In this document: one piece after another, positions 14,836-28,077 of the stretch
Numbering within the stretch: the stretch's first letter is position 1
How the letters are laid out: every line of letters begins with the position of its first letter
DNA from: Flagellimonas sp. CMM7
Lineage (GTDB): Bacteria; Bacteroidota; Bacteroidia; Flavobacteriales; Flavobacteriaceae
Assembly (NCBI RefSeq): GCF_021390195.1
Contig: NZ_CP090003.1
Span: 1,786,001 to 1,850,000, forward strand
Direction of reading: 5' to 3'
Length of the DNA stretch: 64,000 nucleotides
The notes under the pieces: generated by a model
The model's database searches: none
The model's input: only the letters and a program-made list of their open reading frames with translations
What the model was told of the DNA's origin: nothing
Program-made: the position numbers and the translations under genes

Positions 14836-16506
14836 ATGAAGGCAGTAATATACATACGTGTAAGTACCAAAGAACAGGACGAGCAAGGCCAGATAGATAC
14901 CTTGTCCAGTTATGCAAAAAGCAAGGGCCTAAATATCACTAAGACCTTTCTTGACAAAGTAAGTGGCTACAAAATAGAATATGGCCACCGAGAGCAGTTC
15001 AATGAAATGCAAGACTATATTGATACGAACGATATAAAATGTATTGTGGTATCAGAAATCAGTCGTATTGGAAGGAAGCTGATTGAAACCTTAAAGTTTA
15101 TTCAGCATTGTACAGATAAAGGTATCTGTATTCATATAGTGAAAGACAGCATCATTACCATCAATAATGATGGAACTAAAAATTGGATGTTAGATATAAT
15201 GCTTCCAGTATTGGGTTCTATGGCACAAATGGAGAGTGAGCAGTTAGCTTACAGGGTCAAATATGGACTTAATAACAGATATAAAGACGGAAGAGGTTTC
15301 AATGCTCGTATTGTTGGTTACAAAAGGGATAGTGAGGGCAGGCCAATTATTGATCCTGAACAAAAACACATAGTCAAAGATATTTTCAAGCAGTATTTAG
15401 AACATCGTAGTCAGTACACAGTGGCCAATTATGCCAATAACAAATATGGACACATTAAACGCTTTACTGAGGGTGGAATACGTAGTATGCTCCGAAACGA
15501 AATCTACATTGGCAAATGGAAGATAGCGGAATATGTCAACGAAGTTGAGCCAATTATACCTGAGAATTTGTTTTATGATGTTCAGGACATAATGGACAAC
15601 CGCAAGCGCACCAACCTTGGGAACAAACACATAAATCCGTTTGCAGGAATATTGAAATGTGAAAACTGCAATACGCTGATGCGGCAATATGTAGCCGACA
15701 AACCTCAACATAGACTTAACAAATATGGATGCCCAAATAAGAAATGTAATTCCAAGGCAGTTAGCCGGACACACTTAATACATCAGGTAAAATTCATTTT
15801 GGAACGTTACCACAAGGCAGAAGGATTTGAAAAGCAAAAGGCAAAGGTCAAGGAAAAGTTGACAGTACTTGAATCCAATAAAAATGAGATTGAGAAAAAG
15901 ATAGGTAGTACCAAAAAGCGTCAAGATAAATTGTTGGATAGTATGTTGGATGGAACTGTGCCTAAAGAACAATACAAGTCCAAAAATGATGATTTGGAAT
16001 CCATTAAAAACAGGGAGTTGAACCGTTTGGATACCATTAATATAGATATTGCGAGTGCGGAAAAATTTTTAACGGGGGATATACCCACAAACCAATTGGA
16101 ATCCCTTGCCGATTTCAAAGACGTTGTTCAAAAAAGTGTCAAATATGTTATAGTCGGGGAACAATTCGTAAAGGTGAAAATAAAAGGAGGTTTTGATTAC
16201 ATACTGCCCATTTACAGACTTGGCAAACTTCAAAAATTCAACAACGGTAATCTTAAAATGGGAGTCGATAAGAATGTAGAAACAGATATGCTGACCTTGA
16301 TGGAACTGCTGTCCGATAACCAAAGACATACCCCCGAAGAACTTCAGGAAGCAATGCGACAACAGGCAAAACATAATGATGCATTGGAACAACCATACGA
16401 CCCGTTAGAACACGGAATACTGATTACCAAATATGAGAAAATGTATTCTGAAGAACTTATGGAATACATAAAGGAATCTGGCCTTGATTACCTTTTGAAC
16501 GACTAA
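14836..16506 (+). CDS. Large serine recombinase (integrase/excisionase of the element)
   Basis: 556 aa. The resolvase-type catalytic domain starts with VIYIRVSTKEQ (nucleophile S10) and contains EISRIGRKLIE. A recombinase domain follows to about 270, then a zinc ribbon (C275, C278, C299, C304) and a coiled-coil segment near 325-400, the full architecture of large serine integrases. The ATG lies 39 bp inside the left junction, the usual position next to attP. The upstream sequence TTTGGTATATTGCAGTTCG may hold the promoter but is not clear. It should catalyse attP x attB recombination at the TA core in dprA; excision would need a directionality factor, and none is identified. Confidence 0.95.
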   Translation: MKAVIYIRVSTKEQDEQGQIDTLSSYAKSKGLNITKTFLDKVSGYKIEYGHREQFNEMQDYIDTNDIKCIVVSEISRIGRKLIETLKFIQHCTDKGICIHIVKDSIITINNDGTKNWMLDIMLPVLGSMAQMESEQLAYRVKYGLNNRYKDGRGFNARIVGYKRDSEGRPIIDPEQKHIVKDIFKQYLEHRSQYTVANYANNKYGHIKRFTEGGIRSMLRNEIYIGKWKIAEYVNEVEPIIPENLFYDVQDIMDNRKRTNLGNKHINPFAGILKCENCNTLMRQYVADKPQHRLNKYGCPNKKCNSKAVSRTHLIHQVKFILERYHKAEGFEKQKAKVKEKLTVLESNKNEIEKKIGSTKKRQDKLLDSMLDGTVPKEQYKSKNDDLESIKNRELNRLDTINIDIASAEKFLTGDIPTNQLESLADFKDVVQKSVKYVIVGEQFVKVKIKGGFDYILPIYRLGKLQKFNNGNLKMGVDKNVETDMLTLMELLSDNQRHTPEELQEAMRQQAKHNDALEQPYDPLEHGILITKYEKMYSEELMEYIKESGLDYLLND

Positions 16507-20840: not shown

Positions 20841-21509
20841 ATGGAAAAATATGTCGCTTACTACAGAACCTCAACTTCGGACCAAAATTTAGGACTGGAT
20901 GCACAACAAAGTCAAGTGCTGGCACATTTGACCAGAAATAGCGATAACCAATTATTAAAAGAATTCCAAGAGCAGGAAACTGGAACCAATAAGAAACACC
21001 GACCAAAGTTGGCCGAGGCCATCGCACTGTGTAAACAAGAGAATGCAACGCTGATAATAGCTAAACTAGACAGGCTTTCCCGTAACGTTGCGTTTATATC
21101 CTCATTGATGGACAGTAAGGTGAAGTTTAAAGCCCTTGACCTGCCTGATGCCACCAACCTTACCATACACATATTCGCAGCCATTGCACAGCATGAGGCC
21201 GACCTTATATCGCAACGTACAAGGACAGCACTACAACAATTAAAGAAGCAAGGGATAAAGCTTGGTAACCCCCAAAACCTGACCCAAGAAGCTAGAGAAC
21301 TAGGGGCGTTTGCCAATAGGACAAAAGCCAAGGAAAATCCAAATAACGTAAAGGCAAACGCCCATATAGCACTACTAAAGAAAGAGGGGCTTACCCTACG
21401 CCAAATGGCTTGCAAACTCAACGAATCTGGCTTTAAGACAAGTACGGGCAAGCAATTCGGAGCTAATACGGTACGCCGATTGCTGAACAAACTAAAGCAG
21501 ACAGCATAA
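20841..21509 (+). CDS. Small serine recombinase (resolvase family)
   Basis: 222 aa. The catalytic domain starts YVAYYRTSTSDQ (nucleophile S11) and includes IIAKLDRLSRNVAFI and AAIAQHEADLISQRT. The C-terminal part (LTLRQMACKLNESGFKTSTG, then NTVRRLLNKL) is a helix-turn-helix for site binding. It lacks the zinc ribbon and long C-terminus of the large recombinase in the same element, so it should act as a resolvase or invertase. The long non-coding region upstream is the natural place for its site. Confidence 0.88.
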   Translation: MEKYVAYYRTSTSDQNLGLDAQQSQVLAHLTRNSDNQLLKEFQEQETGTNKKHRPKLAEAIALCKQENATLIIAKLDRLSRNVAFISSLMDSKVKFKALDLPDATNLTIHIFAAIAQHEADLISQRTRTALQQLKKQGIKLGNPQNLTQEARELGAFANRTKAKENPNNVKANAHIALLKKEGLTLRQMACKLNESGFKTSTGKQFGANTVRRLLNKLKQTA

Positions 21510-23455: not shown

Positions 23456-23799
23456 ATATTTAAGTACTGCCCAAAAGGTAAATAAGTTTATGTAAGAGCA
23501 AAAGATGTAACAAATTAAGGCTAGGTAAGATTATACATTCAAGGCCTTACCTCAGCTCCCAATAATGCCATAACAATCCGTATGCATCTAAAGTATGGCC
23601 TGATTTTAATATAGTAAGGAACACATTGCTTTTAACTTTCCCTCTAAAATATTGAAAACTAGTTTTTATCGGGTTTATTCTTATTTTGGCGGTATATAGA
23701 TGTAAAATACATCTATATAAACAAGTTGTGCGGAACTAAAACTTAACTTATAGAATATCACTCCCGCCTAAAAAAACAATTAATTGAGTCCGACAAAAA
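23456..23799. other. Spacer with the leading cassette boundary
   Basis: 344 bp without a gene. It holds an imperfect AGGTAAG / CTTACCT pair (about 23522-23562), the perfect hairpin at 23693-23719 and the GTTGTGC boundary at 23725-23731, after which the Mrr cassette starts. Confidence 0.6.
23693..23731 (+). repeat. attC-like half site in front of the Mrr cassette
   Basis: TATATAGATGTA and TACATCTATATA form a perfect 12-bp hairpin with an AAA loop. AACAA and then GTTGTGC (23725-23731) follow. GTTGTGC is the exact complement of GCACAAC at 24713-24719 behind the Mrr gene. The mirror-image left boundary is not seen. Confidence 0.55.
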
Positions 23800-24684
23800 A
23801 TGATTTTCGAATACAAAGAATTCTCAGATCCAAGTGATATTTATAATAATCCACACGATCGCAAATGCGAGTTTTGCTATGAGAAATTAAATGTAGTTGA
23901 CCTTTCAAATGATACATGGTTAATTAAGGACAGTGAGATTATAGATGCCCACGGAACTATAAGAGAAGGTTATAAAGAGGAGGGCTTGGAAGATTGCTAT
24001 CTCAATCTTGACATGGATACAAAGAGCGCAGAAACGTGGATGGATTTTTGCGACACATGCGGTTGGTGGAGAATATTCAAAAATTTCACAATTTGTGCTG
24101 AAGTATGGCAAGTTTGGGATATTTTTTTTACTTGTACCGGCTCACTTAGGAACTTAGAGGCAATTAACATAAATGCACCATTAAATGAAGTTTCTCAATA
24201 TCTAATTGCAAAATACCAAGACAGATTTTCTATTAACCCAAGACTATTCGAGGAGGTGGTAGGTAGCGTTTTTAAGGGCGTCGGTTATAATGTTCATGTG
24301 ACCGGATATAGCAATGATGGAGGTATCGATGTTGTGCTTGGCAGTTCCTCTCAAAAAATGATTGGAGTTCAAGTAAAGCGTTATAAAAATAAAATCAAAG
24401 TGGAGCAAATACGTGCATTCGCTGGCGCACTTTTACTTAACGGTTATAACAAGGGGGTTTTTGTAACTACATCTGACTATCAACCGGGAGCAATTTCAGC
24501 AGCTGAGTCATTCAAGAAAAAAACTCTGCCAATACACCTATTGAACTCTCAACAGTTTTATGACTCCTTAAAAATTTCTCAAAAATCCAAATTTGACCCA
24601 TCAGAAATTCTTCAAATGATTTCAGATAATCAAATTAAACGGCTGCCATATTCCGGCTGGGTAACGCCACAGGCTAGTCTTTAG
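23800..24684 (+). CDS. Mrr-like restriction endonuclease with zinc-binding N-terminus
   Basis: 294 aa. The N-terminal half carries two CxxC pairs (C23-C26 and C84-C87), a likely zinc ribbon. The C-terminal half (about 145-265) is an Mrr-type nuclease: E151, SNDGGIDVVL (D177) and QVKRYK (Q191, K193) form the PD-(D/E)xK core, with a following NGYNKGVFVTTSDY segment. Mrr-family enzymes cut modified or foreign DNA, so a defence role against phage or plasmids is likely. It is the first of three same-strand cassettes bounded by attC-like sites. No methyltransferase partner is present, consistent with a type IV system. Confidence 0.75.
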   Translation: MIFEYKEFSDPSDIYNNPHDRKCEFCYEKLNVVDLSNDTWLIKDSEIIDAHGTIREGYKEEGLEDCYLNLDMDTKSAETWMDFCDTCGWWRIFKNFTICAEVWQVWDIFFTCTGSLRNLEAININAPLNEVSQYLIAKYQDRFSINPRLFEEVVGSVFKGVGYNVHVTGYSNDGGIDVVLGSSSQKMIGVQVKRYKNKIKVEQIRAFAGALLLNGYNKGVFVTTSDYQPGAISAAESFKKKTLPIHLLNSQQFYDSLKISQKSKFDPSEILQMISDNQIKRLPYSGWVTPQASL

Positions 24685-24712
24685 TATTGTTTGTCAAAGT
24701 AATTAAAGCTAC

Positions 24713-24845
24713 GCACAACATTGGCTATAATTCATTGCTGCATTCTTGCTAACTTTAAACCAAATAACAAATAAACGGCTGGATTTCATAGGGACAATTT
24801 CCGTTGGAAATGTCCGCAACGAAATCATAGCCGTGACCGTTACCA
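24713..24845 (+). repeat. attC-like recombination site 1 (behind the Mrr gene)
   Basis: The outer boxes are GCACAAC (24713-24719) and GTTACCA (24839-24845). The inner arms GGCTATAATTCATTGC (24723-24738) and GCAACGAAATCATAGCC (24816-24832) are complementary apart from one unpaired base and G-T pairs. An extra hairpin (GGACA-A-TTTCC / GGAAATGTCC, 24792-24815) sits in the variable part. The layout matches integron attC sites. Confidence 0.65.
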
Positions 24846-24861
24846 GTAATTTGAAGAAACA

Positions 24862-25734
24862 TTGAAACAAGTAGATAATTTATTACATATAACAAACGAC
24901 TTATCTACGGTTAAAAACATCGTTACGCAAGGATTTAAAGCTTCGTATGCAGTTGAAAATTTAGGTGGTAGAAGAATTCTAATTCCAATGGTTTCTTTTA
25001 GCAATTTGCTGTTTAGAGATATTGGAGAGGAAGAAGTTGTCGATTATGGAAATTATGGAGTTGTCATTAACAGGGAATTTGCAGTACAAAATGGACTGAA
25101 TCCAGTAATCTACATTTACGAAAATAGCATAGTAGATAAATCAATTACGAACTTACTGAATCTCTCACTTGTTCCACAAACACTTGACATTCTTAAAGAC
25201 ATATCTAAAGGAAAAGGATTTATTAAAATAACTGACCATATCAAGTTTAATCCATTACCAAAAGAAGTTAAAGAATTGATTAATTCCATAGACAAACACA
25301 CAGATGATAATTTAATTTTAGCCATTAAAAAGTATGCAGAAGAAGCTCATCAAAATGTTTTTTTTCAAATTCTTCTTTCTAAACCTTATAAAGTCAAAAA
25401 CAAAAATAATCAGACAAGAATTGCTTACAACGAAAGAGAATGGAGAAAAGGATTCCTTAATTTAGGTATCATCTTTGAAACAAAAATGAGTGGCGAAAAA
25501 AATCCAGAATTCGAAAAGTGGATTGGAACTGATAAGCCTCATTTTAACGAGCCGAAAAACATACTAAAAATTGACATTGAAAATATAACACATTTAATAG
25601 TTGAAAAAGAAAGAGAAGTTTCAGAACTAACTGATTTTATCAAAGATGAGTTTTCTGTTAAAAAAATAGATAGTTTATTAGCGACTGAATCATTAAAGAT
25701 TGGAACTCTTGAAAAGTTTAAAAAATCGGAATAA
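24862..25734 (+). CDS. AbiGi-like abortive-infection protein
   Basis: 290 aa. The N-terminal region LLHITNDLSTVKNIVTQGFK, then IPMVSFSNLLFRDI, YGNYGVVINREFAVQNGLNP and VIYIYEN matches the AbiGi family (half of the AbiG abortive-infection system). The only usable start is TTG at 24862; an in-frame stop lies upstream at 24847. No AbiGii-like partner is adjacent, so it may act alone or as an antitoxin without its toxin. It lies in a cassette whose start (GTTACCAGTAAT) and end (ACTACTGGCAAC) are complementary at 10 of 12 positions. Confidence 0.7.
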   Translation: MKQVDNLLHITNDLSTVKNIVTQGFKASYAVENLGGRRILIPMVSFSNLLFRDIGEEEVVDYGNYGVVINREFAVQNGLNPVIYIYENSIVDKSITNLLNLSLVPQTLDILKDISKGKGFIKITDHIKFNPLPKEVKELINSIDKHTDDNLILAIKKYAEEAHQNVFFQILLSKPYKVKNKNNQTRIAYNEREWRKGFLNLGIIFETKMSGEKNPEFEKWIGTDKPHFNEPKNILKIDIENITHLIVEKEREVSELTDFIKDEFSVKKIDSLLATESLKIGTLEKFKKSE

Positions 25735-25741
25735 AAACTAC

Positions 25742-25852
25742 TGGCAACAACGTGCTATAATTCATTGCTAGTACTTGCTTACTTCTGATTGGTTTGTATT
25801 TGCTAATTTAGTTGCTAAAACTCGCAACGAGTCATACACAGAACCGTTGTGG
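25742..25852 (+). repeat. attC-like recombination site 2 (behind the AbiGi-like gene)
   Basis: The outer boxes are TGGCAAC (25742-25748) and GTTGTGG (25846-25852). The inner arms GTGCTATAATTCATTGC (25752-25768) and GCAACGAGTCATACAC (25824-25839) pair with one extra unpaired C and some G-T positions. GCTATAATTC is shared with sites 1 and 3. Confidence 0.65.
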
Positions 25853-25862
25853 GTAATTAAAA

Positions 25863-26534
25863 ATGAGAGGGAAACAATATAATTCTAGACTAGACCCAAA
25901 AACCGCCTCAGAAGGAATTAGGTTGGCTATAGAAAACGCTGATTCCTTAGTTAAGGATGCGCAACTTCTATTTGACAACAATCGTTATGAAAGGTGTGTT
26001 GCAATTGCAATATTATCAATTGAAGAAGCAGGCAAATCTAGCATTATTCGCTCTATGTTATTAACGGACGACAAGAAGGAGCTAAGCAATAATTGGAAAA
26101 GGTATAGGAGGCATACTGAAAAAAATCTCGCGTGGATAATGCCAGAATTGTATGCAAAAGGAGCACGAAAAATAGATGACCTTAAATGGCTGTACAATAA
26201 AGAAAGTTCTCACGGACAGACTTTGGATAATTTAAAGCAATTATCATTTTACACAGATATTTTTTCCTCAAAAAAATGGAGTTCCCCATCAAATGTAATT
26301 GACAAAGAACTTGCTGAACAAATTTTGAAATCAGCCAGAATACTAGCCAAAAAACATCCTATTGGAATAAACTCTGAGGAAGGACTTAAATTATGGGTAA
26401 AACACTTAAAACCTGTTTACAAAAAAGACTTGTTGGAAATGAAACAAGCACTAATAAATTGTTATTGTGAAGCCGAGGAACTAGGAATAATAGAAAAGGG
26501 TAAAACTGATGAGATGACAAGTTTTGTGTTATAA
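25863..26534 (+). CDS. AbiV-family abortive infection protein (HEPN)
   Basis: 223 aa. The HEPN_AbiV signature is clear: EGIRLAIENADSLVKDAQLL, then YERCVAIAILSIEEAGKSSI. A basic stretch WKRYRRHTEKNL follows, and the remainder is helical. AbiV was first described as a lactococcal protein that blocks phage development; the HEPN fold suggests an RNA-directed or nucleotide-linked activity. The gene starts 11 bp after attC-like site 2 and is the third cassette gene in the same orientation. Confidence 0.8.
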   Translation: MRGKQYNSRLDPKTASEGIRLAIENADSLVKDAQLLFDNNRYERCVAIAILSIEEAGKSSIIRSMLLTDDKKELSNNWKRYRRHTEKNLAWIMPELYAKGARKIDDLKWLYNKESSHGQTLDNLKQLSFYTDIFSSKKWSSPSNVIDKELAEQILKSARILAKKHPIGINSEEGLKLWVKHLKPVYKKDLLEMKQALINCYCEAEELGIIEKGKTDEMTSFVL

Positions 26535-26541
26535 AAACTTC

Positions 26542-26562
26542 CCAAAACAAAAGCTATAATTC
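26542..26562 (+). repeat. attC-like site 3, left half only
   Basis: CCAAAAC (26542-26548), AAAA and then GCTATAATTC (26553-26562) reproduce the left half of sites 1 and 2 with the same 4-5-nt spacing. The right half is missing: unrelated sequence follows directly, so the array was cut or rearranged here. Confidence 0.55.
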
Positions 26563-26567
26563 TTAGC

Positions 26568-26771
26568 TTAGTTGCCCTGTCTTAGAACATCCCTAACTAA
26601 TCTCATGGCAGATGCTACGTGCTGAACATCCTTGCGCTCAAAAGTATCCTCCTCCAAATAGAACAGCATTTCGATTCCTAAATCAAGCACTGCTGCCAAC
26701 TGTTCCGGAGAACCATAGGCCTCTTTAATAAACTCGGATAGGTCAGGTGAACCATTTAAAGTTTTGGACAT
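26568..26771 (-). CDS. Small helical protein, function unknown
   Basis: 67 aa, acidic (MSKTLNGSPDLSEFIKEAYG, ending in MRLVRDVLRQGN), with no signal peptide or recognised domain. A GTTTAC / GTAAAC inverted repeat lies 13 bp upstream of the start, matching half-sites of the XRE operator at 22849-22874. It may therefore be a member of the XRE regulon. Confidence 0.55.
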   Translation of the reverse strand: MSKTLNGSPDLSEFIKEAYGSPEQLAAVLDLGIEMLFYLEEDTFERKDVQHVASAMRLVRDVLRQGN

Positions 26772-26784
26772 TGTTGTAAAGAAT

Positions 26785-26802
26785 GTTTACGCCAAAGTAA
26801 AC
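26785..26802. promoter_or_regulatory. Candidate second XRE operator
   Basis: GTTTAC and GTAAAC are separated by GCCAAA, directly upstream of the 67-aa gene. The half-site is the one within the perfect operator at 22849-22874. Arms are shorter (6 bp), so binding is only suggested. Confidence 0.4.
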
Positions 26803-26946: not shown

Positions 26947-28077
26947 TCAATCTGCACGATAAGTATTGGGTATTTTATCCCTTATGGTTTCTTTGAATCT
27001 ATGTGAAGTCGAGTAAGATATCATATCATTATATGCTAAACTGCCAACTACAATTGAAGGATGAATTTTATTGTCTTCTGAGAATTCCAATATCGTATCC
27101 TCAGGAATATAACCGAGATATTCATCAAAAAAGTTTAGAATCTTCTCACTCATTAATATTCGTTCTGCTCCGGCATCTGCTTCTTGTTCAATTTTTGCTT
27201 TTCGATTGCTTTTTTTTGCTGTGTCATCAATGAATATTGATTTAGCGTTGCTTGAATCTAAGTGATTTGTTACGTGAATTATTTCGTGTGAGATAGTAAA
27301 CCAAAAATTATCTACTCTGTCATATCGACCAGTCATTCCAATAACAGGCCCCTCAGAAGACATGAAAGCCGCTCCATCCAAGTATGTTTTCGAGAGATGT
27401 GAAAGGTACACAAACTTAACACCCGTTTGTTCCAGTTCCTTAAGAAACAATTTCACTCCATTTTTCCTATAGGAATACTCTGGAATTAAAACCGATAATT
27501 CCTCAAGCTTCTTTTTATCATAGGGATATGATTTTAATTTATTTGAGTGATTAAGAGTTTTTTGATGCCAAATAAGTGCATTGTATGATTGAAAGCCTTT
27601 GTGAGCTTCTGACTTTCTAAAAGCCAAATTTTGCACTCCCTGTTCCAAAAAAGAAAAATCTAGCTCGTCATTTAAATCAATCTGCCAGAACTTTTTTAAT
27701 TGAATTTTAAGCTCATCTATATCTTTATACTTATTGAGCCAGCCCTTTCGAATAAGTTCGTTTACAGGCATATACTTGTAAATATCTGCTTTTAGAGCAA
27801 CACTGTTTTCTTTATCAATGACCTCCTCCGTTCTATTTTGGAGTCGATATATAGCGTCCAAAAGAACCCAGTCTCTAGCTTCTGGTTCAAAAACTTTATT
27901 TAAAAGTGAAGCCATTTCAACGGATACAGATTTTTTATTTTTTATAATTTCATTCGTATGTTTTGTTGAAATAGAGAGAATTAGGGCCAAGTCCTCCTGA
28001 GTCCACCCCTTTGCCTTTAGGCAATGTTTTAAGGCTTGGCCAGGACTATCAAAGTTTTCCCAAAGTTTTGACTTCAA
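26947..28077 (-). CDS. XRE helix-turn-helix / ImmA-IrrE-type metallopeptidase fusion
   Basis: 376 aa. The N-terminal HTH (about 12-60) reads ALKHCLKAKGWTQEDLALIL. The C-terminal peptidase domain has SHEIIH (H264, E265, H268) and the downstream QEADAGAERIL (E299, D301), a complete zinc-protease site. Such fusions, like ImmA of ICEBs1, cleave repressors and release mobile elements after DNA damage. The cargo position suggests control of this element or a toxin-antitoxin-like role. No HigB-type partner is adjacent. Its target could be the 79-aa XRE protein; that is inference. Confidence 0.8.
   Translation of the reverse strand: MKSKLWENFDSPGQALKHCLKAKGWTQEDLALILSISTKHTNEIIKNKKSVSVEMASLLNKVFEPEARDWVLLDAIYRLQNRTEEVIDKENSVALKADIYKYMPVNELIRKGWLNKYKDIDELKIQLKKFWQIDLNDELDFSFLEQGVQNLAFRKSEAHKGFQSYNALIWHQKTLNHSNKLKSYPYDKKKLEELSVLIPEYSYRKNGVKLFLKELEQTGVKFVYLSHLSKTYLDGAAFMSSEGPVIGMTGRYDRVDNFWFTISHEIIHVTNHLDSSNAKSIFIDDTAKKSNRKAKIEQEADAGAERILMSEKILNFFDEYLGYIPEDTILEFSEDNKIHPSIVVGSLAYNDMISYSTSHRFKETIRDKIPNTYRAD

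Follow-up and report, generated by a model that had tools for sequence, protein, structure and literature searches.

How did three predicted phage-defence genes come to stand head to tail in a flavobacterial chromosome, separated by imperfect palindromes and with no integrase beside them? The question is raised by a stretch of 64,000 nt from Flagellimonas sp. CMM7 (Flavobacteriaceae; NZ_CP090003.1, positions 1,786,001–1,850,000), hereafter the window, in which open reading frame (ORF) calls and a Pfam scan place genes of the Mrr, AbiGi and AbiV types in tandem on the plus strand. With a probability that we put at about 0.8, these are three tandem cassettes behind an attI-like dyad, likely inserted as circles by a tyrosine recombinase other than the integron integrase IntI, for which the folded bottom strand is the predicted substrate. 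The array is best read as an outpost, without a recombinase of its own, of an integron-like cassette system that does not use IntI and whose activity we infer from sequence. A preliminary description of the window had proposed an attC-like array of three same-direction defence genes, which the Pfam matches, the box sequences and our covariance model of the sites (R1) bear out; it had left the choice between an integrase-less array and a distinct Bacteroidota cassette system, and the data point to both together, with a recombinase elsewhere on the same chromosome. The parts of the array are as follows, R' and R'' being the outer boxes and L' and L'' the inner arms of a site.

23693–23719, no strand assigned: attI-like dyad TATATAGATGTAAAATACATCTATATA, with 12-bp arms and a 3-nt loop, stopping 5 nt 5' of the first GTT.
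23725–23737, plus strand: R' box of the Mrr cassette, GTTGTGCGGAACT, 11 of 13 positions matching the reverse complement of its own R''; predicted crossover between G and TT (G/TT) at 23725/23726.
23726–24839, plus strand: cassette 1 (Mrr), from TT to G, delimited by the boxes and by the G/TT rule taken from the repeats of plasmid pPP2.
23800–24684, plus strand: gene for an Mrr-type restriction endonuclease, 294 aa (Mrr_cat PF04471, 2.7e-26; PADLOC PDC-S02 / mREase_IV).
24707–24851, plus strand: attC-like site 1, with R'' at 24707–24719 and the R' box of the next cassette at 24839–24851 (R1 92.7 bits, E 7.6e-20; nhmmer 93.9 bits).
Within 24707–24851, plus strand: inner arms of site 1, L'' being GGCTATAATTCATTG and L' being CGAAATCATAGCC.
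24840–25846, plus strand: cassette 2 (AbiGi), from TT to G, own boxes 11 of 13.
24862–25734, plus strand: AbiGi-like gene, 290 aa (PF10899, 1.4e-11; PADLOC AbiGi, 5.6e-18).
25736–25858, plus strand: attC-like site 2, with R'' at 25736–25748 and the R' box of the next cassette at 25846–25858 (R1 75.6 bits, E 8.5e-16).
25847–26568, plus strand: cassette 3 (AbiV), own boxes 10 of 13, its 3' end truncated; the L'R' half is absent, and a host ORF borders it at 26568.
25863–26534, plus strand: AbiV (HEPN) gene, 223 aa (PF18728, 2.4e-42).
26536–26568, plus strand: truncated attC-like site 3, holding the R'' and L'' halves, with the L'R' half absent from the sequence (nhmmer 10.8 bits, E 0.009).

A circle inserted at one point of a site leaves the two halves of the cassette's own site flanking the cassette, and complementarity of a cassette's own boxes is the trace of such an event. 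Over the 13 nt counted from GTT, the own boxes of the three window cassettes match at 11, 11 and 10 positions in the order of the array, and wrong pairings within the window give 7 to 10. The pairing claimed earlier for each gene was thus found in all three; its 7 of 7 for Mrr was too low a count. Among 218 cassettes lying between consecutive sites of the fetched loci (a set with overlapping loci and with pairs that have an unseen intervening site, so that not all members are independent), own boxes agree on average at 10.05 of 13 positions, as against 6.57 for shuffled pairings (maximum 6.94 among 2000 shuffles) and 6.51 when both boxes are taken from one site in place (370 sites). At least 11 matches are reached by 62% of own pairs and by 1.4% of non-own pairs, and 153 of the 218 cassettes reach at least 10. 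Agreement is virtually absent at one box position (0.0 in a two-decimal table, hence no more than 1 of 218), where R' carries A in place of the G expected from R''. The A/G difference at box position 11 is a hallmark of the family and is present in all three own pairs of the window. Short motifs carry less weight. Exact copies of GCTATAATTC occur three times in the window (24724, 25754 and 26553), and with one mismatch allowed the count of seven equals the shuffle expectation, so that this motif alone is no proof of sites. An 18-base site pattern hit named genomes in at least 116 stretches, mostly Flavobacteriaceae among the matches listed; four IMG/VR contigs (L129–L132) also carry it. The pattern gave 147 matches, 126 distinct sites among them having a visible L'R' half.

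The preliminary description had suggested a custom covariance model as a check. R1, trained on 36 sites that come from other genomes (70 were picked, five removed before alignment, 65 aligned and 36 kept in alignment A2, two badly aligned ones being among those dropped), detects both complete window sites at the E-values listed above, and an Rfam scan of 23600–26800 returned nothing except two matches below gathering. The two imperfect palindromes reported earlier between the genes are there, their lengths with the boxes being 145 and 123 bp in place of the 133 and 111 bp given. In the bottom-strand alignment of the 36 sites 96.6% of the cells of the L helix are paired, 9 of its 15 pairs show a change of both partners in one sequence or more, and for the whole structure of 28 pairs none of 500 shuffles attains the observed measures. 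Folding of single window sites in situ is weak (z of -2.4, -0.1 and -0.5) because the R'' and R' found together at one junction are those of two different cassettes; the site folds as a whole only in the form rebuilt with the cassette's own R' box. In 127 of 132 such rebuilt sites (pairs with at least 10 of 13 matches and normal length) the bottom strand is the stabler one, with means of -28.6 and -25.1 kcal/mol for the bottom and top strands. Three near-constant wobble pairs stand on the bottom strand (31, 32 and 33 of 36 sites), and the odd box position, mismatched as A·C on the top strand, is a G·T wobble on the bottom one. Known attC sites recombine as bottom strands selected by extrahelical bases, according to passages of PMC2727003; in the sites described here, the wobbles are predicted to do part of this strand-choice work.

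The crossover point was read from the plasmid pPP2 of Persicobacter psychrovividus (NZ_AP025294.1), where an array of about 100 kb (302.6–403.3 kb; L012, L145 and L146), its genes pointing nearly all one way and including some transposases, ends at a recombinase gene spanning the record's origin. The part of it that was read has 141 recognisable junctions at a median spacing of 642 bp, with most of the cargo annotated as hypothetical and many cassettes repeated, families of about 585 and 645 bp among them. For 51 pairs of repeats with at least 97% identity (pairs that share families), identity ends 0–5 nt past G/TT in 84% of 102 ends, as against 0.8% for random positions, and its start is at most 16 nt before G/TT in 71%, as against 2.1%. 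These common ends imply that cassettes were copied or shuffled as units.

Which enzyme would move them? A co-occurring recombinase, for which the preliminary description had advised a search, adjoins the arrays: in 20 of 20 recombinase-centred stretches of 19.9 kb, each with at least one site, all 139 sites lie 3' of a tyrosine recombinase gene and in line with it. Seven of these loci (L196–L202) come from genomes with arrays already known, and thirteen were picked for no other reason than a complete genome and the presence of the recombinase, which is mostly 375–400 aa long. Taking one genome per genus, sites were found in 133 and the recombinase in 101 of 149 Flavobacteriaceae genomes at threshold (E of 1e-3 for sites and at most 2e-77 for the recombinase); 98 have both, 3 the recombinase only, 35 sites only and 13 neither (p 2.8e-5). 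For 118 genomes of the phylum (thresholds 1e-4 and 1e-62) the corresponding numbers are 30, 14, 13 and 61 (p 4.6e-8). Both tables were tallied by eye; G109, with a recombinase match at 1e-61, is scored as lacking it, and G195, siteless in the family table, has one site at 6.7e-5 in the phylum search. A first trial with the integron-integrase model had given a tyrosine recombinase below the cut-off as best match in 12 of 12 genomes or records (frames of 265–425 aa, the matches broken around model positions 180–240 and the pPP2 frame split by the record's origin); because this model is unspecific below its cut-off, with matches in all 14 control genomes as well, the twelve were taken as a lead only. 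The recombinase had no match at 1e-50 on phage records. Among the matches listed, Acinetobacter plasmids carry shorter relatives (61% coverage, 49.8% identity), one of them named TnpF.

The insert specific to IntI is absent from this recombinase in all 36 members compared. The spacing from the DR to the LRHSFA motif is 68–73 residues in the family (36/36), 110 in IntI (13/13) and 69–76 in 13 Xer-like proteins (14 loci less one without an ORF), and in comparison with the IntI4 structure 2a3v, 21 profile positions stand opposite 64 residues in the insert region. Five recombinases scanned with TIGR02249 reached at most 210.6 bits (cut-off 265); with recomb_XerA_Arch NF040815 (cut-off 220) one of the five scored 226.2 bits, and the enzyme of the Flagellimonas genome itself 218.3. 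The family carries an extra N-terminal domain of about 100 aa with weak fold matches of a HARP/XPB-like kind, recalling the HARP domain of SMARCAL1 and the damage-recognition domain of XPB. The whole-model structure search spans residues 103–375 only, and for this reason the N-terminal part was modelled separately. HARP PF07443 (gathering score 25) was not reached, one of seven N-terminal segments giving 16.2 bits and the other six being unlisted.

The Flagellimonas enzyme (375 aa) is encoded 1.6 Mb from the window (C1:3420951–3422078, minus strand) with an attI-like dyad, and further sites lie downstream of it, in line, at 3419298, 3417034 and 3413943. By sequence, the first cassette's own box lies 38–271 nt past the end of the recombinase gene in 14 of 21 loci. 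In the six tested loci of the nine-row clade to which the Flagellimonas enzyme belongs (L196, L197, L203, L206, L210 and L148) the dyad ends 3–6 nt before GTT; it is strong in five of them and moderate in the genome's own, where 2.9% of random stretches score as high. For the window dyad the corresponding share is 0.13% of 3000 random 45-mers. The window array, standing behind an attI-like dyad without a recombinase, would thus be a second landing place, and a recombinase, if one serves it, would act in trans. Thirteen further site matches are scattered in the same genome (one at E 0.048), and they include two solitary cassettes whose own boxes are complete once the position-11 A is allowed. 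Among the solitary cassettes at C1:292342, 1765280 and 3552055 (L180, L188 and L191), two have a near-identical left flank, ending in GCTAAAGAATCATTAAAACGATTTTTAGCTTAAT, and two share the right flank GATAAGTGAAATCTCAA, as though there were one recurrent landing sequence, of which an empty copy was not found.

On the reading that we prefer, the site of a circular cassette (R''–L''–L'–R') would fold on the bottom strand, the recombinase would cut this strand opposite G/TT, and strand exchange with the double-stranded attI-like dyad or with another site would insert the cassette. The inserted cassette would then have the boundaries that are in fact seen, with a TT-box at the 5' side and R''–L''–L' plus the final G at the 3' side. 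Strand polarity would stem from the conserved G·T wobbles, which pair on the bottom strand and are A·C mismatches on the top one. The N-terminal domain may, speculatively, take over the hairpin-recognition job of the IntI insert. In the window the likely enzyme is the 375-aa protein encoded 1.6 Mb away, which would act in trans.

Several observations weigh against this reading. The AbiV match is non-exclusive, the upstream box of that cassette agreeing also at 10 of 13 positions with the downstream box of Mrr and at 9 of 13 with that of AbiGi, and the truncation of site 3 may mean that this last cassette has lost its mobility. An empty site for the window array was not found, flank homology existing downstream only (77% in G042 and 74% in G025), and a 27-nt empty-target pattern of a solitary cassette was present in 0 of 59 genomes. 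A strong dyad is missing from eight of the 14 attI stretches that were tested; in two of the 21 attI loci the own box is about 1 kb away, and five have no clear box. Three family genomes have the recombinase and no sites. A strict pairing is weakened by the 35 family genomes that have sites, some of them about 20, without the recombinase at threshold; they may have lost the enzyme and kept stranded cassettes. G127, G139, G165, G170 and G198, all without the recombinase at threshold, have at least 19 to 21 sites each.

Some of these points feed an alternative that concerns the window only and overlaps our own reading, namely that the system is real and the window array is a relic, unserved by the distant recombinase or brought there by other means. 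The third site is truncated, and no convincing recombinase of the cassette family was found in the window, the best tblastn match of ten recombinases being E 0.008 over 20 aa, in agreement with the preliminary description, which had seen no tyrosine integrase there. Two serine recombinases with resolvase domains also lie 2–9 kb upstream of the array (window 14836–16506 and 20841–21509). Against this stand the two complete sites, which still score strongly, and the dyad with the attI architecture of the clade that precedes the array; we consider a relic doubtful, although it is the most serious of the alternatives. Downstream, homology to relatives starts at 26568–26570 and the minus-strand host ORF likewise ends at 26568; this border may be simply the end of the host gene. 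A gene for a protein with helix-turn-helix and IrrE/M78-like parts (window 26947–28077, minus strand; PADLOC PD-Lambda-2_B, 3.6e-49) adjoins the array and lies outside it.

A far less probable explanation is an ordinary integron with divergent attC sites, in which a canonical IntI made the cassettes that are now stranded here as a cluster of attC sites lacking integron-integrases (CALIN). The window, with two complete sites and no recombinase of the cassette family, may come close to a CALIN, characterised in passages of PMC9024848 by at least two attC sites and no neighbouring integrase; its sites fit the separate model R1. The layout and the G/TT crossover are those of attC, the NCBI family label of the recombinase mentions an integron integrase, and in a tree of 62 rows (long branches flagged by the program) the family (support 85/58) and IntI (100/100) stand, together with two Xer-like rows, apart from eleven Xer rows (100/99). 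Canonical IntI is also present in the phylum, above cut-off in 105 of 395 genomes; of the 107 matching rows, however, none belongs to the family of the window and one to its class. The array-adjacent recombinase, moreover, lacks the insert, and in 13 loci of canonical IntI, whose attC content was not checked, R1 gave no E-value below 0.62.

Judged by sequence features, what integrons are known for is largely present: imperfect palindromes of the form R''L''L'R', complementary R boxes for each cassette, a G/TT crossover, an attI-like site by the recombinase, one-way tandem cassettes, long arrays and, as predicted here, a bottom-strand hairpin. What fails is the additional domain of the enzyme, which has an N-terminal domain of its own. 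The R boxes of integrons are 7 nt long and the intI gene is usually divergent from the array; here the boxes are about 13 nt, strand polarity is predicted to work via G·T wobbles and the recombinase gene points at its array in all 20 loci.

That another host tyrosine recombinase, XerC/D or an unseen one, does the work and the adjacent gene is a fellow traveller appears still less likely. The 35 family genomes that keep sites without the recombinase would be expected on this explanation, but the one-sided adjacency in all 20 loci, the first-cassette boxes close behind the gene end and the co-occurrence in both tables argue against it.

The cargo bears on the least probable alternative. A good box match singles out 137 distinct cassettes; an ORF of at least 50 aa is present in 134 of them and runs in the cassette direction in 129. 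In the 97 cargo proteins that were scanned there are 70 Pfam families, the commonest with 2–3 members. A dispersed miniature inverted-repeat transposable element, which the preliminary description had named as a possible refutation, or a small transposon with terminal repeats, inserted by chance between genes, would account for complementary ends on each unit and for some solitary genomic copies, but we give it hardly any credence given ends that vary between cassettes and covary, diverse one-way cargo, repeats with common G/TT ends and sites on one side of the recombinase only. The idea that the cassettes are mainly defence genes was rejected, as PADLOC names just ten families with one member each among the 97 proteins. 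With defence cargo so scarce, three defence genes in a row are atypical.

Integron integrases have been identified by the IntI-specific additional domain (passages of PMC9668308), and surveys based on this domain would pass over the recombinase family because the insert is absent from it. For Bacteroidetes, the IntegronFinder 2.0 paper (PMC9024848) reports that formerly only In0 elements were known, to which it adds a single complete integron, in Salinibacter ruber. A 2021 classification describes the IntI insert as incompletely conserved in an integron-like group, which may already contain some of these proteins with the system unnamed (PMC8138268). From XerA (recomb_XerA_Arch) and the integron-like simple tyrosine recombinases, the present family differs by its linkage to cassette arrays and by the further N-terminal domain. 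Searches of an open-access library, preprints and subscription papers excluded, found no description of this cassette system.

Riemerella anatipestifer is a member of the Flavobacteriales. Extracts of a 2026 paper report gene entry without homology in this species, the gene invariably being accompanied by 27 bp on its 5' side and 140 bp on its 3' side, by a mechanism not elucidated; an attC-like fold is reported for the 140-bp segment, and in these extracts no recombinase is named (PMC13148043). The length of this segment fits our sites of 123–145 bp, and the recombinase family may offer a candidate enzyme for these insertions.

Beyond the window, we lean, with clearly less assurance than for the array itself, towards a second kind of integron that predominates in Flavobacteriaceae and occurs across Bacteroidota, with a recombinase devoid of the IntI domain, hairpin recognition by an N-terminal HARP/XPB-like domain, strand choice by G·T pairs and arrays of up to about 100 kb that standard surveys have passed over. 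If this is true, gene capture via folded single strands needs no IntI-specific domain, and what makes an integrase an integrase becomes testable by domain exchange. For the family, with sites in most of its genomes surveyed and with the pPP2 cargo mostly hypothetical, it would open a large gene pool.

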